Origin: a virus
DNA: 40,416 nucleotides
IMG/VR virus record: IMGVR_UViG_3300044622_000496
Span: 1-40,416 of that record
Strand: one strand, 5' to 3'
Part shown: positions 4,045 through 17,960 of the stretch, one piece after another
Layout: every line of letters starts with the position of its first letter
How positions within the stretch are numbered: the stretch's first letter is position 1
Made by a program: the position numbers and the translations under genes
Notes under the pieces: model-generated
The model's input: only the letters and a program-made list of their open reading frames with translations
What the model was told of the DNA's origin: nothing
The model's database searches: none

Positions 4045-5002
4045 GACATCGCAGGCAGGCATCGATCTGATTAAACGGTTCGAAGGGTGCGAAAAGCGCC
4101 TGCCGAACGGCTTCCTCGCAGCGTACAAAAAGGCGGGCGATCCGTGGACAATCGGATGGGGGCAGACCGGGCGGATGCCGGACGGACGCCCGGTGGTGGA
4201 CGGACTGATTGTTTCGCAGGAGGAGGCCGACGCCGCTCTGCTGTGGTTCGTCCGCAATGTTGTGGACCCGCTGACCAGAAAGCATTTCAATGCCCAGACG
4301 CAGGCAGAATTCGACGCGCTGGCAAGCTGGGTTTACAATCTCGATCACGGCAAGCTGGAAGCAGGCAGATATTCGCTGCCGCAGCTGATCAACATCCGGG
4401 ACCGGGACATTGACGCGGTCATTGCCAAATGGGTGCAGTACGTCAACCCGGGTACGATATTCGAGCAAGGGCTCTACAGGCGCCGTCTGGCGGAGGTTTG
4501 CCTGTTTTTCGGCCTGCCGTGGCATTTTGCGCTGAGCGCCGTCCTGCGACGCTCTGGGGGCGTTATCGTGGACAGGACGGACCCGTGGTACGTGCTCGAA
4601 ATGGCAGAGGCAGCTGTGCCGGTCTACAGCGAGCCTGATCCGCCAAAACCTGCCGCGCCCGTCATCCCGGTCGAGGTGGCTCCGCTGCCGCCGGTCGCTC
4701 CCAAGGTGGACACGGCCCTGCCGCCAAAAAAAATGGAGGACAGCGACACGCACAGGGGACTGTCGAAAGCCGAAAGCGGCAAGGAGACCGCCATCGTCGG
4801 CGGCGTGCTGACAGGGCTTGGTGCAATGCTCCCGAATATTCAGGCGATCACGTCTTACCTCTCGCAATTCGACAGCGGCACGATCCTCGCCGCGCTCAGC
4901 GTGATCGGCGTCGGCGTTGTCGGCGTGGGTGCATGGCGCTGGTGGCGCGGTCGGATCATTGCCTACGAGGCGCGCCAGACCTCGACGCAGGCGAAAGTCT
5001 GA
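4028..5002 (+). CDS. Phage lysozyme (GH24-like endolysin) with C-terminal membrane segments
   Basis: The endolysin, which would cut the glycan strands of peptidoglycan. With the GTG start at 4028 (AAGGGGC just upstream) the protein has 324 residues; in-frame ATGs at 3998 and 4013 are alternatives. Residues 10-50 hold the GH24 signature: IKRFEG with the catalytic Glu at 19, and DPWTIGWGQTG with the catalytic Thr at 41. The position that carries Asp or Cys in T4-type lysozymes (two residues after the conserved Tyr) is Lys here (AYKKAGDPWT), which is odd. After a Pro-rich linker (about 200-240) come two hydrophobic segments (about 254-275 and 285-306), so the enzyme may be membrane-tethered at its C-terminus. 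No N-terminal signal-anchor is seen. Confidence 0.85.
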   Translation: MTGWFETSQAGIDLIKRFEGCEKRLPNGFLAAYKKAGDPWTIGWGQTGRMPDGRPVVDGLIVSQEEADAALLWFVRNVVDPLTRKHFNAQTQAEFDALASWVYNLDHGKLEAGRYSLPQLINIRDRDIDAVIAKWVQYVNPGTIFEQGLYRRRLAEVCLFFGLPWHFALSAVLRRSGGVIVDRTDPWYVLEMAEAAVPVYSEPDPPKPAAPVIPVEVAPLPPVAPKVDTALPPKKMEDSDTHRGLSKAESGKETAIVGGVLTGLGAMLPNIQAITSYLSQFDSGTILAALSVIGVGVVGVGAWRWWRGRIIAYEARQTSTQAKV

Positions 5003-5355
5003 TGCCCCAGAACAGCCCATATCGCAGAACCGTGGGGAAGCCTCGACCCGACACGGTGCGGGCTGACGGCTCGCTGAAAGGGCGCGGCTATCTCGGCCCG
5101 CTCAAAAACGCAGCAGGCCAGAGCATGACCGAGTACAGCATCGGCGTAGGCATCGACGGCCAAGAGACGGAAATCCCGACAATGGTCCCGACGCTGGCGC
5201 CCGGTGAAATCGAATACCTGCTCCAGATGCAGGACGGCATGCAGGTGCCGCAGGGCATCCAGCAGAAGGCGGTGGATCACGCGCTGATGCGGATGCGGCA
5301 GGGCTTGTCGCCGTTTCACGACAGCGGCCCAAATCACACAATAAGGCGATACTGA
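5002..5355 (+). CDS. Small protein with a conserved phage GxLGPLK/EIPTMVPT domain
   Basis: A 117-residue protein starting at an ATG overlapping the lysozyme stop (TGATG). Residues 20-110 hold a pattern I have seen in many phage proteins: DGSLKGRGYLGPLKN, a TEYSIGVGIDGQE strand and EIPTMVPTLAPGEIEYLL, then helices. Databases usually leave this domain unnamed; in other phages it also occurs inside larger virion proteins. Near the start it carries RRTVGKPR (residues 8-15), a motif repeated in two other proteins of this genome (39864-40106 and 34213-39819). A virion or ejection-linked role is therefore plausible. Confidence 0.75.
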   Translation: MPQNSPYRRTVGKPRPDTVRADGSLKGRGYLGPLKNAAGQSMTEYSIGVGIDGQETEIPTMVPTLAPGEIEYLLQMQDGMQVPQGIQQKAVDHALMRMRQGLSPFHDSGPNHTIRRY

Positions 5356-6955: not shown

Positions 6956-7405
6956 CGCATAGGGCGTAAAAATCCGCACAGTCGTGCGCTCGTCTGCGTC
7001 AATCAGCATGAGCGTGCCTTTGTGCGGGGCATCCTTTGCGAGAGCTGCGCGGGCGAACTCAACGAGCTGCTCGCGCGTCCAATCAACATGTGAAAGCGTG
7101 TTGTCAGCGTTGGCGACAATGCGCGATCCAAAAGCGATCACTTGCATATCCGCCTCCAGTCTCTCGACCCTATCCAGCAGTTCCGGCAGCGCGTTGATCG
7201 CGGCGACAATGAGGGCGGCGTCATGTGCTGGTTGTTCATACCATCCTTGCCACGGTTGTTGTGGTCCGCAACGCGCAATGATCGCGCCGATCATATTTGC
7301 GTCAGGCCAGATCGACATCGGGCCTTGAGCGTCACCCAATTCGTTGTGGCCGACATACCACGGCCCCGGCGTTGCGGCGGCAAGCAGTTTCTTCAGGTCT
7401 TCCAT
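6923..7405 (-). CDS. Ead/Ea22-like early protein
   Basis: A 160-residue protein from an ATG at 7405 with GGAGAAG upstream. It opens with LLAAATPGPW and contains a DAALIVAAINALPELLDRVE segment. This pairing of a TPGPW start with a DAxxIAxxxNALPxLL helix is typical of the widespread phage Ead/Ea22-like early proteins, whose role is not known. The C-terminal part (about 110-150) is less conserved. It overlaps the upstream HNH gene by 13 bases and ends convergently inside the RHH gene. Confidence 0.7.
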   Translation of the reverse strand: MEDLKKLLAAATPGPWYVGHNELGDAQGPMSIWPDANMIGAIIARCGPQQPWQGWYEQPAHDAALIVAAINALPELLDRVERLEADMQVIAFGSRIVANADNTLSHVDWTREQLVEFARAALAKDAPHKGTLMLIDADERTTVRIFTPYASAPDSVEDEA

Positions 7406-7770
7406 GTCACTTCTCCATTGAATTTCCGTGATCCAGCAAAGCCCCTGCCAGCAATAGGCCGGTGCTTGCCTTCAGCCTTCTTCTGTGCACGCCTGTCTGC
7501 CTGCGTTTTGCCTTGCTCGATGCGGCGGACCTTGGCGCGATCTGGGGCCTCTGCGCTTGTCTTAGGCTTGCTGCATTCGGACAGCCAAAGGGCGCGGTTT
7601 TCCAGTTCGTTCTTGCCGCCAGAAAAGAGGCTGTTCAGGTGTTCGTCCGTCACCAGCTTTGGCTTGGTAAAATCCAGCCGCTGCTTGCATCCACATCCGC
7701 ACAGGCAGTCCTGCTTGATGATGAGGAAGCCGAACTCGCGACGGGTGAGGGGGCGGCGTTTTTCGGTCAT
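7393..7770 (-). CDS. HNH-type putative nuclease
   Basis: A 125-residue protein starting at ATG 7770, which overlaps the stop of the gene upstream (ATGA). Residues 20-70 hold a Cys cluster (DCLCGCGCK) for metal binding, then TDEHL with the probable catalytic His at 44, and GGKNELENRALW with the Asn residues of an HNH motif, then a further Cys (SEC, 66). The C-terminal part is basic and Lys/Arg/Gln-rich. Small phage HNH proteins of this type nick or cut DNA in packaging, homing or recombination; here the neighbours are ERF and NinB, which favours recombination. Confidence 0.7.
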   Translation of the reverse strand: MTEKRRPLTRREFGFLIIKQDCLCGCGCKQRLDFTKPKLVTDEHLNSLFSGGKNELENRALWLSECSKPKTSAEAPDRAKVRRIEQGKTQADRRAQKKAEGKHRPIAGRGFAGSRKFNGEVTWKT

Positions 7771-8057
7771 TTGCGGCCTCGCTTTGAAAGAGCGCTTCCC
7801 AGCTTGACGGGGAGGGCAATCAGCACGATGGCGGCACCCGCCACGAGGGCCGGACCCCAAAACGCGGGCCAGAAAAGCGTAGACAGAACGCCGAAGAACA
7901 GGACGGCCCACCCAGATTCCTCGGGGCTGTCTTTGCCAGCAAACAAGAACCCCATGAGCGCGGAATAGATGCACAGCGTAAACGCGCTGATAGCTATGTA
8001 TTGCCACGAAGTCGGGTTATCCATCAGCCAGTTGAACTGCGCGATAACTTCTTGCAT
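7767..8057 (-). CDS. Small integral membrane protein
   Basis: A 96-residue protein with hydrophobic segments at about residues 20-40 (YIAISAFTLCIYSALMGFLF), 50-66 (WAVLFFGVLSTLFW) and 68-84 (GPALVAGAAIVLIALPV), and a basic C-terminus (SKRGRK). It lies in the leftward early operon between the HNH-type and NinB-like genes, with 4-base and 1-base overlaps. An early membrane protein may alter host uptake or exclude other phages. Family not recognised. Confidence 0.7.
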   Translation of the reverse strand: MQEVIAQFNWLMDNPTSWQYIAISAFTLCIYSALMGFLFAGKDSPEESGWAVLFFGVLSTLFWPAFWGPALVAGAAIVLIALPVKLGSALSKRGRK

Positions 8058-10420: not shown

Positions 10421-10532
10421 GTCGGTGTCTCCTCGTCTGATGACTTGTTATGGCATAGGTGTTTCACGCCCGCAACAGAAAAATGTGCCTTGCACGAAAC
10501 ATTTTTTGTTTTATTGTGCGCGGCATGAAACA
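10421..10532. promoter_or_regulatory. Divergent early promoter region with GAAACA half-site repeats
   Basis: This gap separates the leftward early operon from the rightward replication operon. Three copies of C-R/T-x-GAAACA-like half-sites lie at 10460-10468 (inverted, TGTTTCACG), 10493-10501 (CACGAAACA) and 10524-10532 (CATGAAACA), spaced 33 and 31 bases. For the rightward side, TTGCAC (10490-10495) and TATTGT (10512-10517) with a 16-base spacer form a fair promoter whose start would fall near 10524, directly at the ATG of the Cro-like gene. The region is AT-rich around 10496-10515. The sites are candidates for binding by the Cro-like protein. Confidence 0.5.
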
Positions 10533-10731
10533 GCACATGACTTTTGATGAATGGTGCGAGCAGGACGGGCGCGGCCCCTCGGCTCTGGCGAGGGCTTTAG
10601 GTGTCAGCAGGACGACCCTGTGGCGGCTGCGGGTTGGCGACCACGCCATCCTGCCCCACACTGCCCGCCAGATCGATCTGGCGACCGGGGGCAAGGTGCG
10701 CGCTGCTCAGCTGCTGGGGCTCGACACATGA
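10525..10731 (+). CDS. Cro/YdaS-like helix-turn-helix regulator
   Basis: A 68-residue protein from ATG 10525 (ATG 10537 is possible). Residues 18-62 form a Cro-like helix-turn-helix: PSALARALGVSRTTLWRLRVGDH, then TARQIDLATGGKVRAAQLL, the typical end of YdaS/Cro family proteins (ERATGGxVxxxEL). No Shine-Dalgarno sequence precedes either ATG, and the best promoter places the transcript start at about 10524, so the mRNA may be leaderless, as for lambda cI made from its maintenance promoter. It would control the divergent region just upstream. It lacks the self-cleavage domain of CI-type repressors. Confidence 0.75.
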   Translation: MKQHMTFDEWCEQDGRGPSALARALGVSRTTLWRLRVGDHAILPHTARQIDLATGGKVRAAQLLGLDT

Positions 10732-10814: not shown

Positions 10815-12055
10815 GATACGGTTCAGTCTGCTCTGGTATCGAAGCCGCTTCCGTCGCGTGGGAGCCTCTCGGCTGGCGGGCCTCGTTCTTGTCCGAGATC
10901 GAGCCCTTCCCGCGCGCCGTCCTTTCACATCATTACCCGGAGACCCCGCTTCATGGCGATTTCACGACGATCCGCAAAGACCAATACCAGGCAATCGACC
11001 TTCTGGTCGGAGGAACACCTTGCCAGTCTTTCAGTATCGCAGGCCTCAGAGGCGGACTGGCAGACGACCGTGGTAACCTGGCGCTCGAATATCTTAGGCT
11101 GGCTGACCGCCTGCGCCCCAGATGGCTGGTATGGGAGAACGTTCCCGGCGTCCTGTCATCGGCTGGCGGACGGGACTTTGGTGCCATACTCGGGGGCATG
11201 GTCGAGCTCGGGTATGGCCTCGCCTACCGAGTGCTTGACGCTCAGTACGTCCGAGTGGACGGCTTTGGACGGGCTGTCCCTCAAAGACGACGGCGTGTCT
11301 TCGCTGTCGGACATCTTGGAGACTGGCGACGTGCCGCAGCGGTATTATTTGAGCGAGAAAGCCTGTCAGGGCATTCTGCGCCGCGCCGCCAAGCGAGGCA
11401 AGGAGTTGCCGCCTGCATTACAGCGGGCTTTGGAACAGGTAGCGAAATGCACCCCGAAGGAGACATGAGCGGTCTGGTGCCGTCATGGCCCGCACAGGTG
11501 GCCCCGACCCTTAACGCGAAATTCGGCGACAAGATGGGCCTTGAGGACCAGCACGCCCTGAACGGCGCCGGGATGTTCGTGCCTGAAACCTTCGGCACGT
11601 TGACCACCAGGTCGATCTCCGCAATGGGCGCCCGCGATGTTGAGGAAGGCGTTCTCGTGCCAGAGGTTTCCTACACCCTCAATGCAGGCGGGCAGGCGCG
11701 CATGGACATCGGGAACGAGACCGTTGTTCCGGTAGCCTTTGACATGGCGCAGATCACCAACAAGGCAAACCGCACCCGGGTTGAAGCAGGCCTGCCAGCG
11801 TCAACACTGAACGCGGCCGGGCAGATGCACGTCGCCTACGGATGGCGCGTCCGCCGCCTTACCCCGACTGAGTGCGAGCGGCTTCAGGGTTTCCCGGATG
11901 GCTATACTGCAATTTCTTATCGCAACAAAACTGCGGACGATTGCCCTGACGGTCCACGCTACAAAGCCTTGGGCAACAGCATGGCCGTCAACGCCATGCG
12001 GTGGATCGGGCAGCGCATTGAGATGGTGGACGCAATGGAGACGGCACATGGGTGA
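10811..12055 (+). CDS. DNA (cytosine-5) methyltransferase
   Basis: A 414-residue enzyme of the C5 type that transfers a methyl group from S-adenosylmethionine to cytosine. Start at ATG 10811; the open frame to 10601 runs through the regulator gene and is rejected. Motifs in order: I GSVCSGIEAA (4-13), IV GGTPCQSFS with catalytic Cys 71, VI ENV (109-111), VIII QRRRR (158-162), a variable target-recognition region (about 175-340), IX ERLQGFP (356-362) and X GNS (388-390). All key residues are present. No restriction enzyme gene is near, so it is an orphan methylase, probably protecting phage DNA from host restriction. Target sequence cannot be read from the protein. Confidence 0.92.
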   Translation: MRYGSVCSGIEAASVAWEPLGWRASFLSEIEPFPRAVLSHHYPETPLHGDFTTIRKDQYQAIDLLVGGTPCQSFSIAGLRGGLADDRGNLALEYLRLADRLRPRWLVWENVPGVLSSAGGRDFGAILGGMVELGYGLAYRVLDAQYVRVDGFGRAVPQRRRRVFAVGHLGDWRRAAAVLFERESLSGHSAPRRQARQGVAACITAGFGTGSEMHPEGDMSGLVPSWPAQVAPTLNAKFGDKMGLEDQHALNGAGMFVPETFGTLTTRSISAMGARDVEEGVLVPEVSYTLNAGGQARMDIGNETVVPVAFDMAQITNKANRTRVEAGLPASTLNAAGQMHVAYGWRVRRLTPTECERLQGFPDGYTAISYRNKTADDCPDGPRYKALGNSMAVNAMRWIGQRIEMVDAMETAHG

Positions 12056-12482: not shown

Positions 12483-12596
12483 ATGCCTGAGACCCTATTA
12501 CCGTCTGTTTTTGTCGTGCGCAATACGCCGCGATACATCACGCTACCGTTCCGCACATCTCCATACACGTCCACGGGTGACCGCGATGTCGCGTAA
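12483..12596 (+). CDS. Small frame, 37 residues, coupled to the initiator gene
   Basis: ATG at 12483 with a strong ribosome site (TTGGAGGA at about 12467-12474) and a stop at 12594-12596, overlapping the initiator ATG at 12586 by 11 bases. The peptide (MPETLLPSVFVVRNTPRYI and on to DRDVA) has no recognisable domain. The initiator itself has only a weak ribosome site, so translation of this frame may feed ribosomes to it. It may also be a regulatory leader peptide. Confidence 0.4.
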   Translation: MPETLLPSVFVVRNTPRYITLPFRTSPYTSTGDRDVA

Positions 12597-13263
12597 ACTC
12601 GTCACGCTCGTGTATGAACGCCGCATCGGTTCGATGATGCGAAAGGCCGTCCTGGCCTACATGGCAGATCGCGCCAATGACGACGGGACCGGCATCTGGG
12701 TTTCGAAAAAACGGATCGCCCGCGAGATTGAGGCCAGCCGCAGCGGCGTCATTGTTGTCATCAAAAGCCTGGTTGCAGACGGAATTTTGCTCGACAACGG
12801 AATAATTAACGGTCGCTCGACGCACGATTATACAATCGACGTTAGGACGTTGCGCAACTTGCCGGTGGCAAATGAGGACGATCAGGGGTGTGCAGAAATA
12901 GACACCCCCCCTGTCCAGAAAACGACAGGGGGTGTCCACCCGGTAGACAGGGGGTGTCCACCCGATAGACACGAACCGTCCTTTAACCGTCCATTAACAT
13001 ACGGCGAACAGGCCGAAGCGAAGCGCCTTGCCGAACAGACCCTCAGCGCCATGAAGGCGCAGGGTCTGTCGTCTCCGGCGGGGAGGGAGGTAATGGCCGC
13101 GCTGATCGGCCTGCACAAGCGCGGCAAGGTCAGCCTGCGCGAAATCGATGAATTCAAAGCGGCTGTTCGGGGGTGTGCAGACGGCGGGCTCGTCCTGTCG
13201 GCCACCTACGCGCCGCCTGCCCCAATCGCAGACATCCTGACACCAACAAACGAGGAAACATGA
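12586..13263 (+). CDS. Replication initiator-like protein (helix-turn-helix, lambda O type)
   Basis: A 225-residue protein from ATG 12586. Residues 18-75 form a helix-turn-helix (RKAVLAYMADRANDDG, then WVSKKRIAREIEASRSGV and a recognition helix with KSLVADGIL), a pattern of phage replisome organisers that bind their own origin. The middle part, about residues 106-127, is encoded by two direct 22-base repeats plus an inverted copy (12901-12967), as lambda O contains ori. The C-terminal part (about 140-200) is helical. The gene for a DnaA domain IV protein follows. Function is inferred from architecture and from the repeats; no catalytic motif is expected. Confidence 0.65.
   Translation: MSRKLVTLVYERRIGSMMRKAVLAYMADRANDDGTGIWVSKKRIAREIEASRSGVIVVIKSLVADGILLDNGIINGRSTHDYTIDVRTLRNLPVANEDDQGCAEIDTPPVQKTTGGVHPVDRGCPPDRHEPSFNRPLTYGEQAEAKRLAEQTLSAMKAQGLSSPAGREVMAALIGLHKRGKVSLREIDEFKAAVRGCADGGLVLSATYAPPAPIADILTPTNEET
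12901..12967 (+). repeat. Iteron-like repeats, candidate replication origin
   Basis: Two abutting 22-base direct repeats lie at 12924-12945 and 12946-12967, beginning GACAGGGGGTGTCCACCC and differing at one base. A related inverted copy (GACACCCCCCCTGTCC) is at 12901-12916. Each direct repeat contains GGGTG-TC-CACCC dyad symmetry. Since 22 is not a multiple of three, the two copies are read in different frames, giving different peptides; the repeat is therefore kept at the DNA level, not for the protein. An AT-richer stretch (CTTTAACCGTCCATTAACAT) follows at 12981-13000. This fits iterons of an origin inside the initiator gene, as in lambda. Confidence 0.65.
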
Positions 13264-13264
13264 C

Positions 13265-13633
13265 GTGACGATATTGACTATACACACCCAGCCGGGGCGC
13301 AGGCAAATGGCAGAGGTTTGCGCCTCGACCGGCCTGACCCGCGATCAGCTGCGGGGCTGGCAAAAAACCCGCGACCGAGCACAAGCTCGACAGCAGCTGT
13401 TTTTCCGGCTGGTCGTGATCGAGGGCTGGAGCCTGCAACAGGCTGGCCAGCAGGCCCGCAAGCATCACACCACCGTGCTTTACGGCTACCGAACGCTGGC
13501 ACACCGCTGCCTCGGCACGCCGATCCGCGCTCGCAGGGAGGCCATTGTCGAGGCCTGGCAGGGCCTGCTGGTGGCATTGGAATTCGGGCGCCTGTGCTGG
13601 GCGTCAGATAGCATCATGGAGGAAGCAGCATGA
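13265..13633 (+). CDS. Stand-alone DnaA domain IV-like DNA-binding protein
   Basis: A 122-residue protein from GTG 13265 (GAGGA nine bases upstream; ATG 13307 is an alternative). Residues 17-85 follow the C-terminal, box-binding domain of bacterial DnaA: VCASTGLTRDQLRG, KTRDRAQARQQLFF, then WSLQQAGQQARKHHTTVLYGYRT, where HHTTVLYG (67-74) matches the DnaA signature (R)DHTTVLHA. The ATPase domain of DnaA is absent. It directly follows the initiator-like gene with its iterons, so it may bind DnaA-box-like sites in phage or host DNA to recruit or displace host DnaA. Its last bases overlap the next start (ATGA). Confidence 0.75.
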   Translation: MTILTIHTQPGRRQMAEVCASTGLTRDQLRGWQKTRDRAQARQQLFFRLVVIEGWSLQQAGQQARKHHTTVLYGYRTLAHRCLGTPIRARREAIVEAWQGLLVALEFGRLCWASDSIMEEAA

Positions 13634-14520
13634 ATACAGCATCAATAGCGGGGCTGAGCCCCAAGGCTAAACCGACAGCAGAGATTATCGCGCGCGCCTG
13701 CGAACGGTACGGTTTCGGCTGTCAATTCGGGACGGCCAACAAGCACCCGTACGCCGAAATCACCGTGAACCGGCAGACCCGGAAAATCTATTTTTCCAGC
13801 ACGCCATCCGATTACCGGAGCAGGCTGAATACGATTAGCGACCTAAAGAAAACGGCCCGCGCGCTGGGCTGGGAGCCGAACGCAAACATTAACGAGGACG
13901 AGGACACCGACATGACGCAGACCGTAAAATCACTGGCAGACCTGCCACGCCTGGGCGAGCCCGGCTGCCCGCCGCCGCCGGACCAGTGGGCTGGCAAACC
14001 GATCAGGGGCCGGATCAGGCACCCAGACTTGTTGGCGGCGTACGCGAAGCGAAACAGGTGGATCATGGAACAGCATCACGCAGGCATGAAACACAACGAA
14101 ATACTGGGACATCTGCGGACGGCAGGTTGGGACATTACCAGCAGCGGGGCGGTAGACATGGTCGTGTTCAAGGAAAAGAACGGCAAATATTCCAACGAGG
14201 AGGAACGCTACACAAATTACGCCGAGCAGCTGACTAACACGGACATGCCAAGGCTCCCAAGGCTCAGCACAACAAAGCGTCACGAGCGCGAGCTGACAGA
14301 AGCAGCGACCGACACGTCGTTTATATCGTCACGTCCGTTTGTGACCATGACGCCCGCGCCAGCGTCAGAGGGGCTTGACCCGCTTGTGCTAGCCATCGCA
14401 ACCGTCATTGCTCCGCTGATCCGCGAGCAGCTTGCGCAGCAGGCAAAACAGATGGAGACGTACAAGGCCAAGGCGGACAAATGGGACGCCATTGCCGGGC
14501 TCGTGAGGGACGACACATGA
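13630..14520 (+). CDS. Hypothetical protein with HicA-like N-terminal domain
   Basis: A 296-residue protein. Residues 15-80 (EIIARACERYGFG, HPYAEITVNRQTRKIYFSS and DLKKTARALGW) have the helix-strand-strand-strand-helix layout of HicA or dsRNA-binding-like domains. The middle part has Pro-rich loops and a helical region (RNRWIMEQHHAGMKHNEILGHL) that could be a helix-turn-helix. The C-terminus has a hydrophobic helix (LVLAIATVIAPLI, about 253-265) and a coiled coil (QLAQQAKQMETYKAKADKW). No toxin-antitoxin partner lies next to it. In the replication operon, function unknown. Confidence 0.65.
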   Translation: MNTASIAGLSPKAKPTAEIIARACERYGFGCQFGTANKHPYAEITVNRQTRKIYFSSTPSDYRSRLNTISDLKKTARALGWEPNANINEDEDTDMTQTVKSLADLPRLGEPGCPPPPDQWAGKPIRGRIRHPDLLAAYAKRNRWIMEQHHAGMKHNEILGHLRTAGWDITSSGAVDMVVFKEKNGKYSNEEERYTNYAEQLTNTDMPRLPRLSTTKRHERELTEAATDTSFISSRPFVTMTPAPASEGLDPLVLAIATVIAPLIREQLAQQAKQMETYKAKADKWDAIAGLVRDDT

Positions 14521-14711
14521 AGCTGGAAACCTGTCGCGGCGGCTGGCATCCATTCCGGCACGATGTGGAGGAGCGTCCGCAAGGCCCTGAAGGGGGGCAG
14601 GGCGTCATGGTCACGCGCGTCCACACCCAGTGCCGTTTTTGCGGCCAGCGGTTGGCGAGCAGGACGAAGCGTGTCATCCCGCAGGAGGATTACATTCGGG
14701 GCGCCAGATGA
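14517..14711 (+). CDS. Small zinc-ribbon-like protein
   Basis: A 64-residue protein from ATG 14517 (ATGA overlap) with an ATGA junction to the next gene. Cys at 5, CRFC at about 45-48, and His residues (GGWHPFRHD, RVHTQC) could bind one zinc ion. The C-terminal part is basic. Probably a nucleic-acid-binding accessory of the replication or antitermination region; no further assignment. Confidence 0.6.
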   Translation: MKLETCRGGWHPFRHDVEERPQGPEGGQGVMVTRVHTQCRFCGQRLASRTKRVIPQEDYIRGAR

Positions 14712-15226
14712 GCTATTACGCATTTACCGCGAGGCATGAGCCGAAAGCGGCAGCAGAACTGCGGGAGGCCGGATTTCCGGCCTTCTGCCTCATGCGTCTG
14801 GACCGGCGGCGAGTGCATCGTCACCGGGCCAAGGGGCCAGCAGCGACAAAGCAAAAACCCGTCGTCGCCTTGCGCGGCTACGTTTTTGCGGCTGTGGATC
14901 GCCCGCACCTCGTTCAGCACATGACGCATGTAGGCCAGGCCGTGCGGTTCTGCGGGCAATGGCAACCTATACCAGAACGCGAAATGCAATGGCTGCTGCA
15001 ACCGCCGGGCGACCTGTTCCATTGTACGGAGATACCCCGGTTCATGAACCGCCCCGAACCGCCAATCGTAAAACGGGGCGACATAGTGCGATTACGGCTC
15101 GCCTCTGAGCAGCATGACCTGCCGGTACTGAGCGTGGACGGCGCCATGCTGGTGGTCGCCATTCGCATGCTGGGCCGCGAGATCAGGACGCGGGTGCCGG
15201 TCGATCAGGTCGAGCTGGCCGCTTGA
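14708..15226 (+). CDS. NusG-like transcription antiterminator (NGN plus KOW)
   Basis: A 172-residue protein from ATG 14708. Residues 2-100 follow the NGN domain that binds RNA polymerase: YYAFTARHEPKAAAELREAG at the start, a basic loop (RVHRHRAKG, KQKP), LRGYVF at 55-60, and a helix before EREMQWLL. Residues 121-165 look like a KOW domain (KRGDIVRLR, then strands to TRVPVDQVEL). Relatives such as RfaH and NusG keep polymerase elongating through pauses and terminators. It is the last gene before the late operon, the position of a lambda Q-like late regulator, so late antitermination is the likely job (inference). Confidence 0.8.
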   Translation: MSYYAFTARHEPKAAAELREAGFPAFCLMRLDRRRVHRHRAKGPAATKQKPVVALRGYVFAAVDRPHLVQHMTHVGQAVRFCGQWQPIPEREMQWLLQPPGDLFHCTEIPRFMNRPEPPIVKRGDIVRLRLASEQHDLPVLSVDGAMLVVAIRMLGREIRTRVPVDQVELAA

Positions 15227-15464
15227 CTTTGCCAACGAACGACATCAACGCTCTGCCTGCCTGATCTGGACCCGCACGCAGCCCGTAGGGCCGAGCCGCG
15301 CAGATCACGCCAGGGGTGGGGCCTACGCGCAGCAAACGCGCCTCCGCACCCCGAGTGCTGCTGCATTGCCTGTCGATGAGCGCGCGCACAGTTTTTGTCC
15401 TCGCAAAACTGCTGGCCGACCCACAAGCCGCGCGCGCTCTTCAACACGCAACACGGAGCCCACA
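15227..15464 (+). promoter_or_regulatory. Gap between early and late operons, candidate late control site
   Basis: 238 bases, the longest gap in the genome, between the NusG-like gene and the first late gene. It holds a hairpin CAGTTTT (15389-15395) with AAAACTG (15405-15411), loop nine bases, and GC-rich repeats (GCGCGCGC at about 15379-15388 and 15430-15440). TTGACT at 15223-15228 is a good -35 box but no convincing -10 box follows. No T-run terminator is seen. A 30-residue frame occupies 15376-15468. This is where a late promoter or an antiterminator loading site would be expected. Confidence 0.4.
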
Positions 15465-16327: not shown

Positions 16328-16600
16328 TTGAATAAACAAAGGGAAAATAAACCGCCCAGGAGCCGGGGTCGCCCAAAGGGCTCGCCGAACAAAACTACCG
16401 CGCTGCTGAAGGACGCCATCCTGCAAGCAGCTGAAAAGGCAGGCGGAAAGGGCGGCACAATTGCCTACCTGACGACGCAGGCAAAGGACAACCCGGTCGC
16501 ATTCATGGGCATGCTGGGCAAAGTGCTGCCAATGCAGGTCCAGGGCGCAGGCCCGACCGGCGAGCATGTGGTAGTGGTGCGCGTCGAGTATGTTGATTGA
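16328..16600 (+). CDS. Terminase small subunit-like protein
   Basis: A 90-residue protein starting at a TTG (16328) preceded by a strong AGGAGG at 16317-16322; no ATG fits as well. It opens with a basic PRSRGRPKGSPNKTTALLKDAI, followed by helices and NPVAFMGMLGKVLPMQV. This RGRPKGSPNK start and xGKVLPxQV end are common in the small proteins directly upstream of terminase large subunits, usually labelled small terminase; they would recognise phage DNA for packaging. It overlaps TerL by 11 bases. Shorter than most small terminases, so the DNA-recognition role is likely but not certain. Confidence 0.7.
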   Translation: MNKQRENKPPRSRGRPKGSPNKTTALLKDAILQAAEKAGGKGGTIAYLTTQAKDNPVAFMGMLGKVLPMQVQGAGPTGEHVVVVRVEYVD

Positions 16601-17960
16601 GCAGCCTTGGCGCATCTCGCGCACGTACGAACCGCTCAATCGCCCATCGCGCTACAAGGCGCTGTACGGCGGGCGCGGCGGCGGCAAGTCGCACCATTTT
16701 GCAGAGCGGCTGATCCTGCGATGCTCCGAAGCCAAGATCAGGGCAGCATGCATCCGCGAGGTTCAAGTCACGATCCGTGACAGCGTGCGCCAGCTGCTTA
16801 TCGACAAAATACAGAAGTTCGGTTTCGGGCACCTGTTCGAAGTTCACGCGAACGAAATTCGCGGCCACAACGGCTCGCTGATCGTTTTCAAGGGCATGCA
16901 AAGCTTCAACGCGGAGAACATCAAATCGCTTGAGGACTTCGATCTGGCATGGGTCGAGGAGGCCCAGACGCTAAGTGAGAAATCCCTGCGCCTGCTTCGC
17001 CCGACGATCCGCAAGGAGGGCAGCGAAATCTGGTTCAGCTGGAACCCGAGATACGAGAACGACGCCATAGACGATTTTCTCCGGGGAGCGAGCCCGCCTG
17101 AAGATGCCGTCGTCCTGAAAGTGAACCTGGAGCAGAACCCTTTCGCGACATCTGTGCTGCTCAAAGAGCGCGACGAGGACTATGCGCGCGACCCTGAAAT
17201 GGCTCGCCACGTGTGGGGCGGTGATTACGAGATTGTCTCTGAAGGCGCCTACTACGCGCGCCTGATCACGAAGGCCGAAGACGAAGGGCGCATCGGCAAT
17301 TTCCCACACGACCCGGCAATGCCTGTCCGCACCGCGTGGGACATCGGGGTCGATGACTATACCGCGATCTGGTTCATTCAGGACGACGGCATCCATCACA
17401 CCGCTGTGGACTATTACGAGGTGAGCGGACTGGGGGCAGAGGACATCGTCAGGCAGATCATGCCGGAGTTGCTCCCTGACCTACAGGAGCGCGCAGAACA
17501 GCGCCTGCTGCTCGACCGCAAGCACCCGTTCCGATACGCCGTCCACTACCTGCCGCACGACGTAGCGGTGCGAGAGTGGGGAGCAGGCGCCAGGACCAGA
17601 GCGCACACGCTCAACGGACTGGGCGTTAAACCTATCGATCCCGGCGTCAGGTCAGGGCCGGAAGACAGGATCAACGCAGCAAGGGCAATCCTGCCGCTGT
17701 TCAGGTTTCACCGCTCGCCGCGCGTCATGCTGGGCCTAAACCGGCTGAGACGCTACGCACGAAAACGAAATGACCAGATGAACATGTGGATGGGTCCAGA
17801 ACATGGACCGCACAGCCACGGCGCAGATGCTTTTGGCGAGTACGCGGTCAATCGCGGTCGCCACCTGCTCGAAGCAGCTGCCCCAAAAATTATCCAGCCG
17901 CGCGGTTCGATCATCCTCGAAGGCGCACCCAAACCACAAAAGGCCCGGCTCAAAGTCTGA
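16590..17960 (+). CDS. terL: Terminase large subunit (packaging ATPase-nuclease)
   Basis: A 456-residue protein that drives DNA into the capsid and cuts concatemers. The N-terminal ATPase has Walker A GGRGGGKS (27-34), Walker B DLAWVEEAQ (118-126) with the catalytic Glu, and FSWNP (149-153) as the coupling motif. The C-terminal RNase H-like nuclease has Asp 251 (AWDIGVDD), Asp 324 (YLPHDVAV) and Asp 413 (HGADAFGEY), the three acidic metal ligands. Length is typical. Directly follows the small subunit and overlaps the portal start by one base (TGATG). Family pattern resembles the terminase 3/6 group; packaging mode (headful or cos) cannot be fixed from this alone. Confidence 0.95.
   Translation: MLIEQPWRISRTYEPLNRPSRYKALYGGRGGGKSHHFAERLILRCSEAKIRAACIREVQVTIRDSVRQLLIDKIQKFGFGHLFEVHANEIRGHNGSLIVFKGMQSFNAENIKSLEDFDLAWVEEAQTLSEKSLRLLRPTIRKEGSEIWFSWNPRYENDAIDDFLRGASPPEDAVVLKVNLEQNPFATSVLLKERDEDYARDPEMARHVWGGDYEIVSEGAYYARLITKAEDEGRIGNFPHDPAMPVRTAWDIGVDDYTAIWFIQDDGIHHTAVDYYEVSGLGAEDIVRQIMPELLPDLQERAEQRLLLDRKHPFRYAVHYLPHDVAVREWGAGARTRAHTLNGLGVKPIDPGVRSGPEDRINAARAILPLFRFHRSPRVMLGLNRLRRYARKRNDQMNMWMGPEHGPHSHGADAFGEYAVNRGRHLLEAAAPKIIQPRGSIILEGAPKPQKARLKV

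Follow-up and report, generated by a model that had tools for sequence, protein, structure and literature searches.

Phage genomes frequently carry stand-alone genes for DnaA domain IV (DnaA-IV), and these are usually annotated as replication initiators. One such gene lies in the 40,416-nt viral sequence analysed here (the window, meaning the whole stretch and not this feature alone), directly after a gene for an initiator. The question raised by this locus is whether the encoded protein takes part in replication of the phage, acts on the host or controls phage transcription.

A cellular precedent for control of transcription is GafY of Caulobacter, a stand-alone DnaA domain IV homologue that binds about 20 promoter regions and contacts region 3–4 of RpoD (PMC11150451, PMC9632790). 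GafY activates GTA transcription together with the antiterminator GafZ, whose proposed partners are NusA, NusG and NusE (PMC9632790, PMC11150451). The same parts are fused in GafA of Rhodobacter (RcGTA) (PMC9638019, PMC6363796), and promoter activation by GafA requires its DnaA-like N-terminus (PMC9638019). GafA homologues are also carried by roseophages (PMC6363796).

A stand-alone DnaA domain IV and its recognition helix

The open reading frame extends from 13265 to 13633 on the plus strand, as do the neighbouring features between 12586 and 17960 described below, and encodes 122 amino acids. Its GTG start codon lies 2 bases past the stop codon of the initiator gene, with a GAGG sequence about 9 bases upstream, and its stop codon shares the sequence ATGA with the start of the following gene. 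The gene belongs to the early right operon, in which the start of one gene overlaps the stop of the one before it or nearly does so. The following gene (13630–14520) encodes a 296-aa protein that matched no family above threshold save for a weak match to phrog_2089, which is of unknown function.

Pfam profile PF08299 (Bac_DnaA_C) matched residues 16–76 (13310–13492) over profile positions 6–67 of 69, with a score of 33.5 bits that exceeds the curated cut-off of 31.5 (E = 4.3e-8). The domain search identified domain IV alone; the ATPase and every other domain were absent, including the AAA+ domain III that accompanies domain IV in DnaA replication initiators. A phmmer search of the PDB returned a single match, the M. 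tuberculosis DnaA-DBD (3pvp/3pvv, E = 1e-4). As a single-sequence AlphaFold prediction was poor (pLDDT 47.8), we used an AlphaFold2 model based on an alignment of 19 phage proteins. The mean pLDDT of this model was 79.6, with residues 11–80 in blocks averaging above 90, and its top PDB matches were DnaA-DBDs with probabilities of 1.00 and modest E-values (3pvp, 3.5e-3; 1j1v, 0.16). An HMM built from DnaA only scored the protein at 25.5 bits, compared with 12.9 bits for the best of 2,000 shuffles of the same protein. No PHROG family was matched. As the Pfam, PDB, AlphaFold2 and shuffle results agree and the ATPase is absent, we conclude that this gene encodes a genuine stand-alone DnaA domain IV, which confirms the preliminary description on both its domain assignment and its missing ATPase. 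The protein is expected to dock on DNA via its helix-turn-helix.

The motif HHTTVLYG, previously noted as a helix, marks the start of the recognition helix, which comprises HHTTVLYGYR (residues 67–76; 13463–13492) in our alignments. Using E. coli numbering (R399, S400, T435, R442 and K443 after PMC9638019), H434, T435 and T436 of DnaA are kept, D433 is replaced by histidine and R399 by lysine. The ARQ motif of DnaA is also retained. Every DnaA that was compared has aspartate at the position of the first histidine of HHTT, a motif that the window protein shares with L047 and L050; most cellular GafY proteins have RDRTT at this position. D433 and H434 are base contacts in the 1J1V structure. The base-contact set of DnaA-box readers (R399, D433, H434, T435 and T436) is thus incomplete in the window protein. 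Because the base-contact residue D433 is replaced, binding to canonical DnaA boxes is doubtful. Judged by its recognition helix, the protein is neither a canonical DnaA-box reader nor a GafY. The window contains no perfect DnaA box, and the number of near boxes with one mismatch to TTATCCACA is not in excess (4 compared with 3.05 expected). An earlier proposal that the protein redirects host initiation by occupying DnaA boxes therefore finds no support in either the boxes or the recognition helix.

Relatives of the protein and of the neighbouring initiator

Searches with a generic domain IV (tblastn) identified stand-alone DnaA-IV genes in phages of Bradyrhizobium, Rhizobium, Leeuwenhoekiella and Microcystis and in other phages, and many more were found in viral contigs. 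Dozens of proteins in a structure library of viral proteins are labelled DnaA C-terminal. Stand-alone DnaA-IV proteins are thus common in phages and already known there, and the window protein appears from its sequence to be a divergent addition to them. Neither tblastn in phages and plasmids nor a scan of viral contigs for exact peptide patterns found a close relative. The nearest relatives were those of L047 and L060 (phmmer E = 1e-12; 42% identity over 81 residues). Matches of a window-like profile in alphaproteobacterial genomes were mostly host DnaA and were set aside as relatives. Full-length dnaA genes in some records filed as phage were likewise rejected as phage genes, their dnaA-dnaN-recF-gyrB context resembling host DNA. 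One such record, L015 (CAKLQH020000026.1), is filed as an Acinetobacter phage and reads rpmH-dnaA-dnaN-recF-gyrB, which looks like a host chromosome.

L110 is a third relative that carries DnaA-IV, and its C-terminal tail is closely similar to that of L047. The tails of these two proteins (L047 7696–8025; L110 3690–4061) have EIRVAYIAKSQQ in common while their domains have diverged; the shared tail could be an interaction motif or a product of recent exchange. In a weakly resolved tree of 93 columns, the window and L047 proteins paired (support 91/94) among phage proteins, and GafY formed a clade of its own (97/88) with the window protein outside it. With the same 93 columns, grouping the window and L047 proteins with GafY in one clade was not rejected (p-AU 0.23), and grouping them with DnaA was marginally rejected (p-AU 0.046).

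The gene upstream of DnaA-IV (12586–13263) encodes a lambda-O-like replication initiator (HTH_36; PHROG replication-initiation-O-like). Within it lie two 22-nt direct-repeat iterons (12924–12967) and a partial inverted copy (12904–12915), which upholds the earlier statement that DnaA-IV directly follows an iteron-bearing initiator gene. The same statement had been extended to a two-part initiator consisting of an HTH protein and a DnaA-IV protein. DnaA-IV, this initiator and its iterons do not stay together in the relatives: the three are parted in L004 and L047. The initiator of L004 is homologous to that of the window (51% identity over 135 residues), and its gene contains three repeats with 22-nt spacing at a place matching the window iterons. 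The aligned iteron DNA is in different reading frames (12895 is on a codon start, L004:2715 is not), so the likeness is not explained by the protein sequence. A DnaA-IV gene was not found within the 6.8 kb of L004 that were searched.

The reverse combination was observed in L047, a related phage contig that shares with the window the genes at window positions 8057 (93% identity) and 15855 (67%), the Cro-like gene (59%) and the NusG-like gene (39%). For replication L047 has a primase of the zinc-ribbon/Toprim type and a ResIII helicase; the tested iteron cores of the window are absent from it, and DnaA-IV is kept. In L110 DnaA-IV is kept with another HTH_36 initiator. From the comparison of L004 with L047 and L110, it appears that the iterons go with the initiator and that DnaA-IV does not. 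The Mu-like phage L029, which encodes MuA, MuB, Gam, GemA and Mor, also has DnaA-IV: two tandem stretches of the domain occur in one protein (4677–5222) just before GemA and the Mor-like activator. Mu-like phages replicate by transposition. Taken together, these sequence comparisons argue against a dedicated two-part initiator, although the protein may still serve as a general helper in replication, given that its gene comes directly after a replication gene in L047 and L110 as well as in the window.

Two further observations were made. In L002, an O-like initiator related to that of the window is followed, about 2.3 kb downstream, by a 224-aa protein (7311–7985) whose N-terminus resembles a divergent DnaA-IV. 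The cytosine methyltransferase region of the window (10838–11412) and Caulobacter phage DMCA are 82% identical at the level of DNA, which may point to a host among the alphaproteobacteria.

The NusG-like gene and a conserved RNA element

Downstream of DnaA-IV, the gene at 14708–15226 encodes a NusG-like protein. Its identification as a putative antiterminator is weak: the match to PF02357 (NusG) had an E-value of 7e-4 and 20.4 bits, below the cut-off of 22.2, and the match to a PHROG transcription antiterminator had an E-value of 2e-4. A profile of the NusG-like proteins had no match in the PDB; against an approximate E. coli NusG sequence it aligned collinearly and weakly (hhalign probability 2%, P = 0.024). 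The large terminase subunit (16590–17960; PF04466) is encoded further downstream, close to where the late genes begin.

Our search for a shared protein-binding motif in the intergenic region following the NusG-like gene led instead to an RNA structure, which accounts for the conservation of this region. The element (15258–15368) is conserved in seven contigs after the NusG-like gene, with one extra open reading frame between gene and element in L105, L108 and L109. Besides the window, it was located in L047 (9082–9187), L105 (1953–2047), L108 (6501–6611), L109 (7875–7981), L110 (5680–5775), L111 (3137–3233) and L118 (944–1045). Each of the six outer-stem pairs has changes on both sides, and pairing is preserved in every sequence. 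Covariation scored 0.577 compared with 0.228 in shuffles, for a structure derived from one of the seven sequences and at a small effective depth since L110 and L111 are near-identical; slid controls collapsed. Thermodynamic folding was not significant (z from 0.64 to −1.86), and thus the case for this element rests on covariation. A model built from the seven sequences recovered the element in L118, which had been held out, about 280 bases 3' of the NusG-like gene (E = 1e-11). The model had no credible match in the searched phage loci that lack the NusG-like gene, in L004, whose NusG-like protein is divergent, or in 385 genomes, the last being a search run without a positive control. No Rfam family matched.

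LoaP is a NusG paralogue that acts via a hairpin of the leader RNA, and has been called the only known case of specific pairing between a NusG-like protein and an RNA (PMC12691694). As LoaP works in this way, an antitermination signal is a natural guess for the element described here; by analogy, it could be an antitermination RNA or another regulatory RNA of the late genes. If it is an antitermination signal, it would represent a second pairing of a NusG-like protein with an RNA.

The terminase also led to a phage with a gene order of interest. Bradyrhizobium phage ppBeUSDA76-2, the phage with the best terminase match to that of the window, has the order DnaA-IV, DUF6456 (GafZ-type), terminase. 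DUF6456/GafZ (PF20057) had no match in the window record, and the window has its NusG-like gene in the interval between DnaA-IV and terminase where ppBeUSDA76-2 has DUF6456. DnaA-IV lies between a replication gene and the NusG-like gene in the window, L047 and L110, that is, with three replication modules: O-like initiator with iterons, ResIII helicase with primase, and HTH_36, respectively. In two other contigs the gene for GcrA was found 5' of the NusG-like gene (L108 1762–2214, E = 3e-19; L111 454–1161, E = 4e-11). A possible winged-helix protein occupies this side in L109 (6325–6894; Trans_reg_C, E = 0.12, which is not significant), and L108 also has a protein related to it. No DnaA-IV was found in the 28-kb record of L109, the terminase of which is 77% identical to that of the window. 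Some contigs with the NusG-like gene are fragments, and absence of DnaA-IV from those is weak evidence. In our reading, DNA-binding regulators are exchanged at this site 5' of the NusG-like gene.

Function of the DnaA-IV protein and comparison with known systems

The reading that we prefer, to which we give an even chance, is that the DnaA-IV protein belongs to a phage cassette for switching expression and is a regulator like GafY without being its orthologue; orthology is set aside because GafZ is missing and the recognition helix differs. The protein would be a small sequence-specific DNA-binding regulator of phage transcription, most likely helping to switch on a phage operon. It would bind sites other than canonical DnaA boxes in phage, and perhaps host, promoters and would contact RNA polymerase in the way that GafY contacts RpoD. 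Transcription would then be carried into the late genes by the RNA element together with the NusG-like protein. This reading is favoured by the GafY and GafA activators, by the gene order in ppBeUSDA76-2, by retention of DnaA-IV with three replication modules among contigs sharing the NusG-like gene, by the other predicted DNA-binding regulators upstream of that gene where DnaA-IV is absent (L108, L111 and L109) and by the tandem protein in L029. It is weakened by the lack of GafZ, by the separate clade and different motif of GafY, by the weak NusG and non-significant winged-helix assignments, and by L004 and L109, in which the NusG-like gene does without DnaA-IV. Moreover, DnaA-IV comes directly after the replication gene in all three of these contigs (window, L047 and L110), a position that a role in replication predicts as well. 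Such a role, in which DnaA-IV binds at or near an origin in the initiator gene and aids the origin complex of the O-like initiator, is the strongest of the alternatives, though an unlikely one. The 2-base spacing from the initiator gene fits it, as does the fact that several phages have DnaA-IV beside genes for replication (primosomal/DUF1376, O-like, primase and helicase), and the iteron core GTCCACC resembles part of the DnaA box. However, the homologous initiator and 22-nt-spaced iterons of L004 occur without DnaA-IV in 6.8 kb, DnaA-IV of L047 sits beside a helicase-primase module without the iteron cores, and a tandem DnaA-IV protein is present in a Mu-like phage.

Somewhat less probable again is a protein that binds either host DnaA sites or the regulators of DnaA themselves and changes initiation at the chromosome or genes under DnaA control. 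GafY was earlier named HdaB, and its overexpression affected chromosomal replication, although these effects were ascribed to GTA induction (PMC9632790). The kept H434, T435 and T436 are consistent with an HdaB-like action of this kind; the changes at D433 and R399 and the lack of DnaA-box enrichment in the phage speak against it. The least probable of the readings that we considered is a repressor or anti-repressor of early phage genes, which would use the same DNA-binding ability for negative control. Small DNA-binding proteins of early operons are often repressors, and nothing in the DnaA-IV sequence fixes the sign of regulation; against this, the window already has a Cro/YdaS-like regulator (10459–10731), and the characterised relatives GafY and GafA are activators.

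An extension of the GafY-like reading, which we offer tentatively and hold to be less likely than that reading itself, is a three-piece late-gene switch that is undescribed as a unit. It would consist of a DnaA-IV activator, a NusG-like antiterminator and the RNA at 15258–15368 for loading of the antiterminator, with relatives swapping DnaA-IV for host cell-cycle-type regulators such as GcrA. What is new here is the dissociation of DnaA-IV, initiator and iterons across relatives, together with the neighbouring RNA element. On account of this dissociation and the GafY precedent, we argue that the replication-initiator label misleads for some DnaA-IV genes and that proteins of this kind may regulate transcription. 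A regulatory role would connect the control of phage genes with GafA and GafY, the regulators of GTA.

Comparison with known systems places the locus as follows. The O/P module of lambda resembles it in having iterons inside the initiator gene, with a small gene coming next within the operon. The window differs in that no helicase loader was recognised and that the small gene is DnaA-IV, which does not go with the iterons from one relative to another. Bacterial DnaA has in common with the window protein domain IV, H434, T435, T436 and the ARQ motif; domains I–III are absent from the latter, and D433 and R399 are substituted. The phage proteins labelled DnaA C-terminal (A0A6J5MHG7 and A0A6J5KNY4 of uncultured Caudovirales, and those of Rhizobium phages RHph_N28_2 and RHph_TM3_3_3) are likewise small DnaA-IV proteins without the ATPase and often adjoin replication genes, although their identity to the window protein is about 15–33% and they have DHTT where the window and L047 have HHTT. 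GafY differs from the window system by its association with DUF6456 and by its clade (97/88), most members of which have RDRTT. Nonetheless, GafY/HdaB and the N-terminus of GafA share with the window protein the character of a small DnaA-IV DNA-binding protein that is found together with an antitermination factor.
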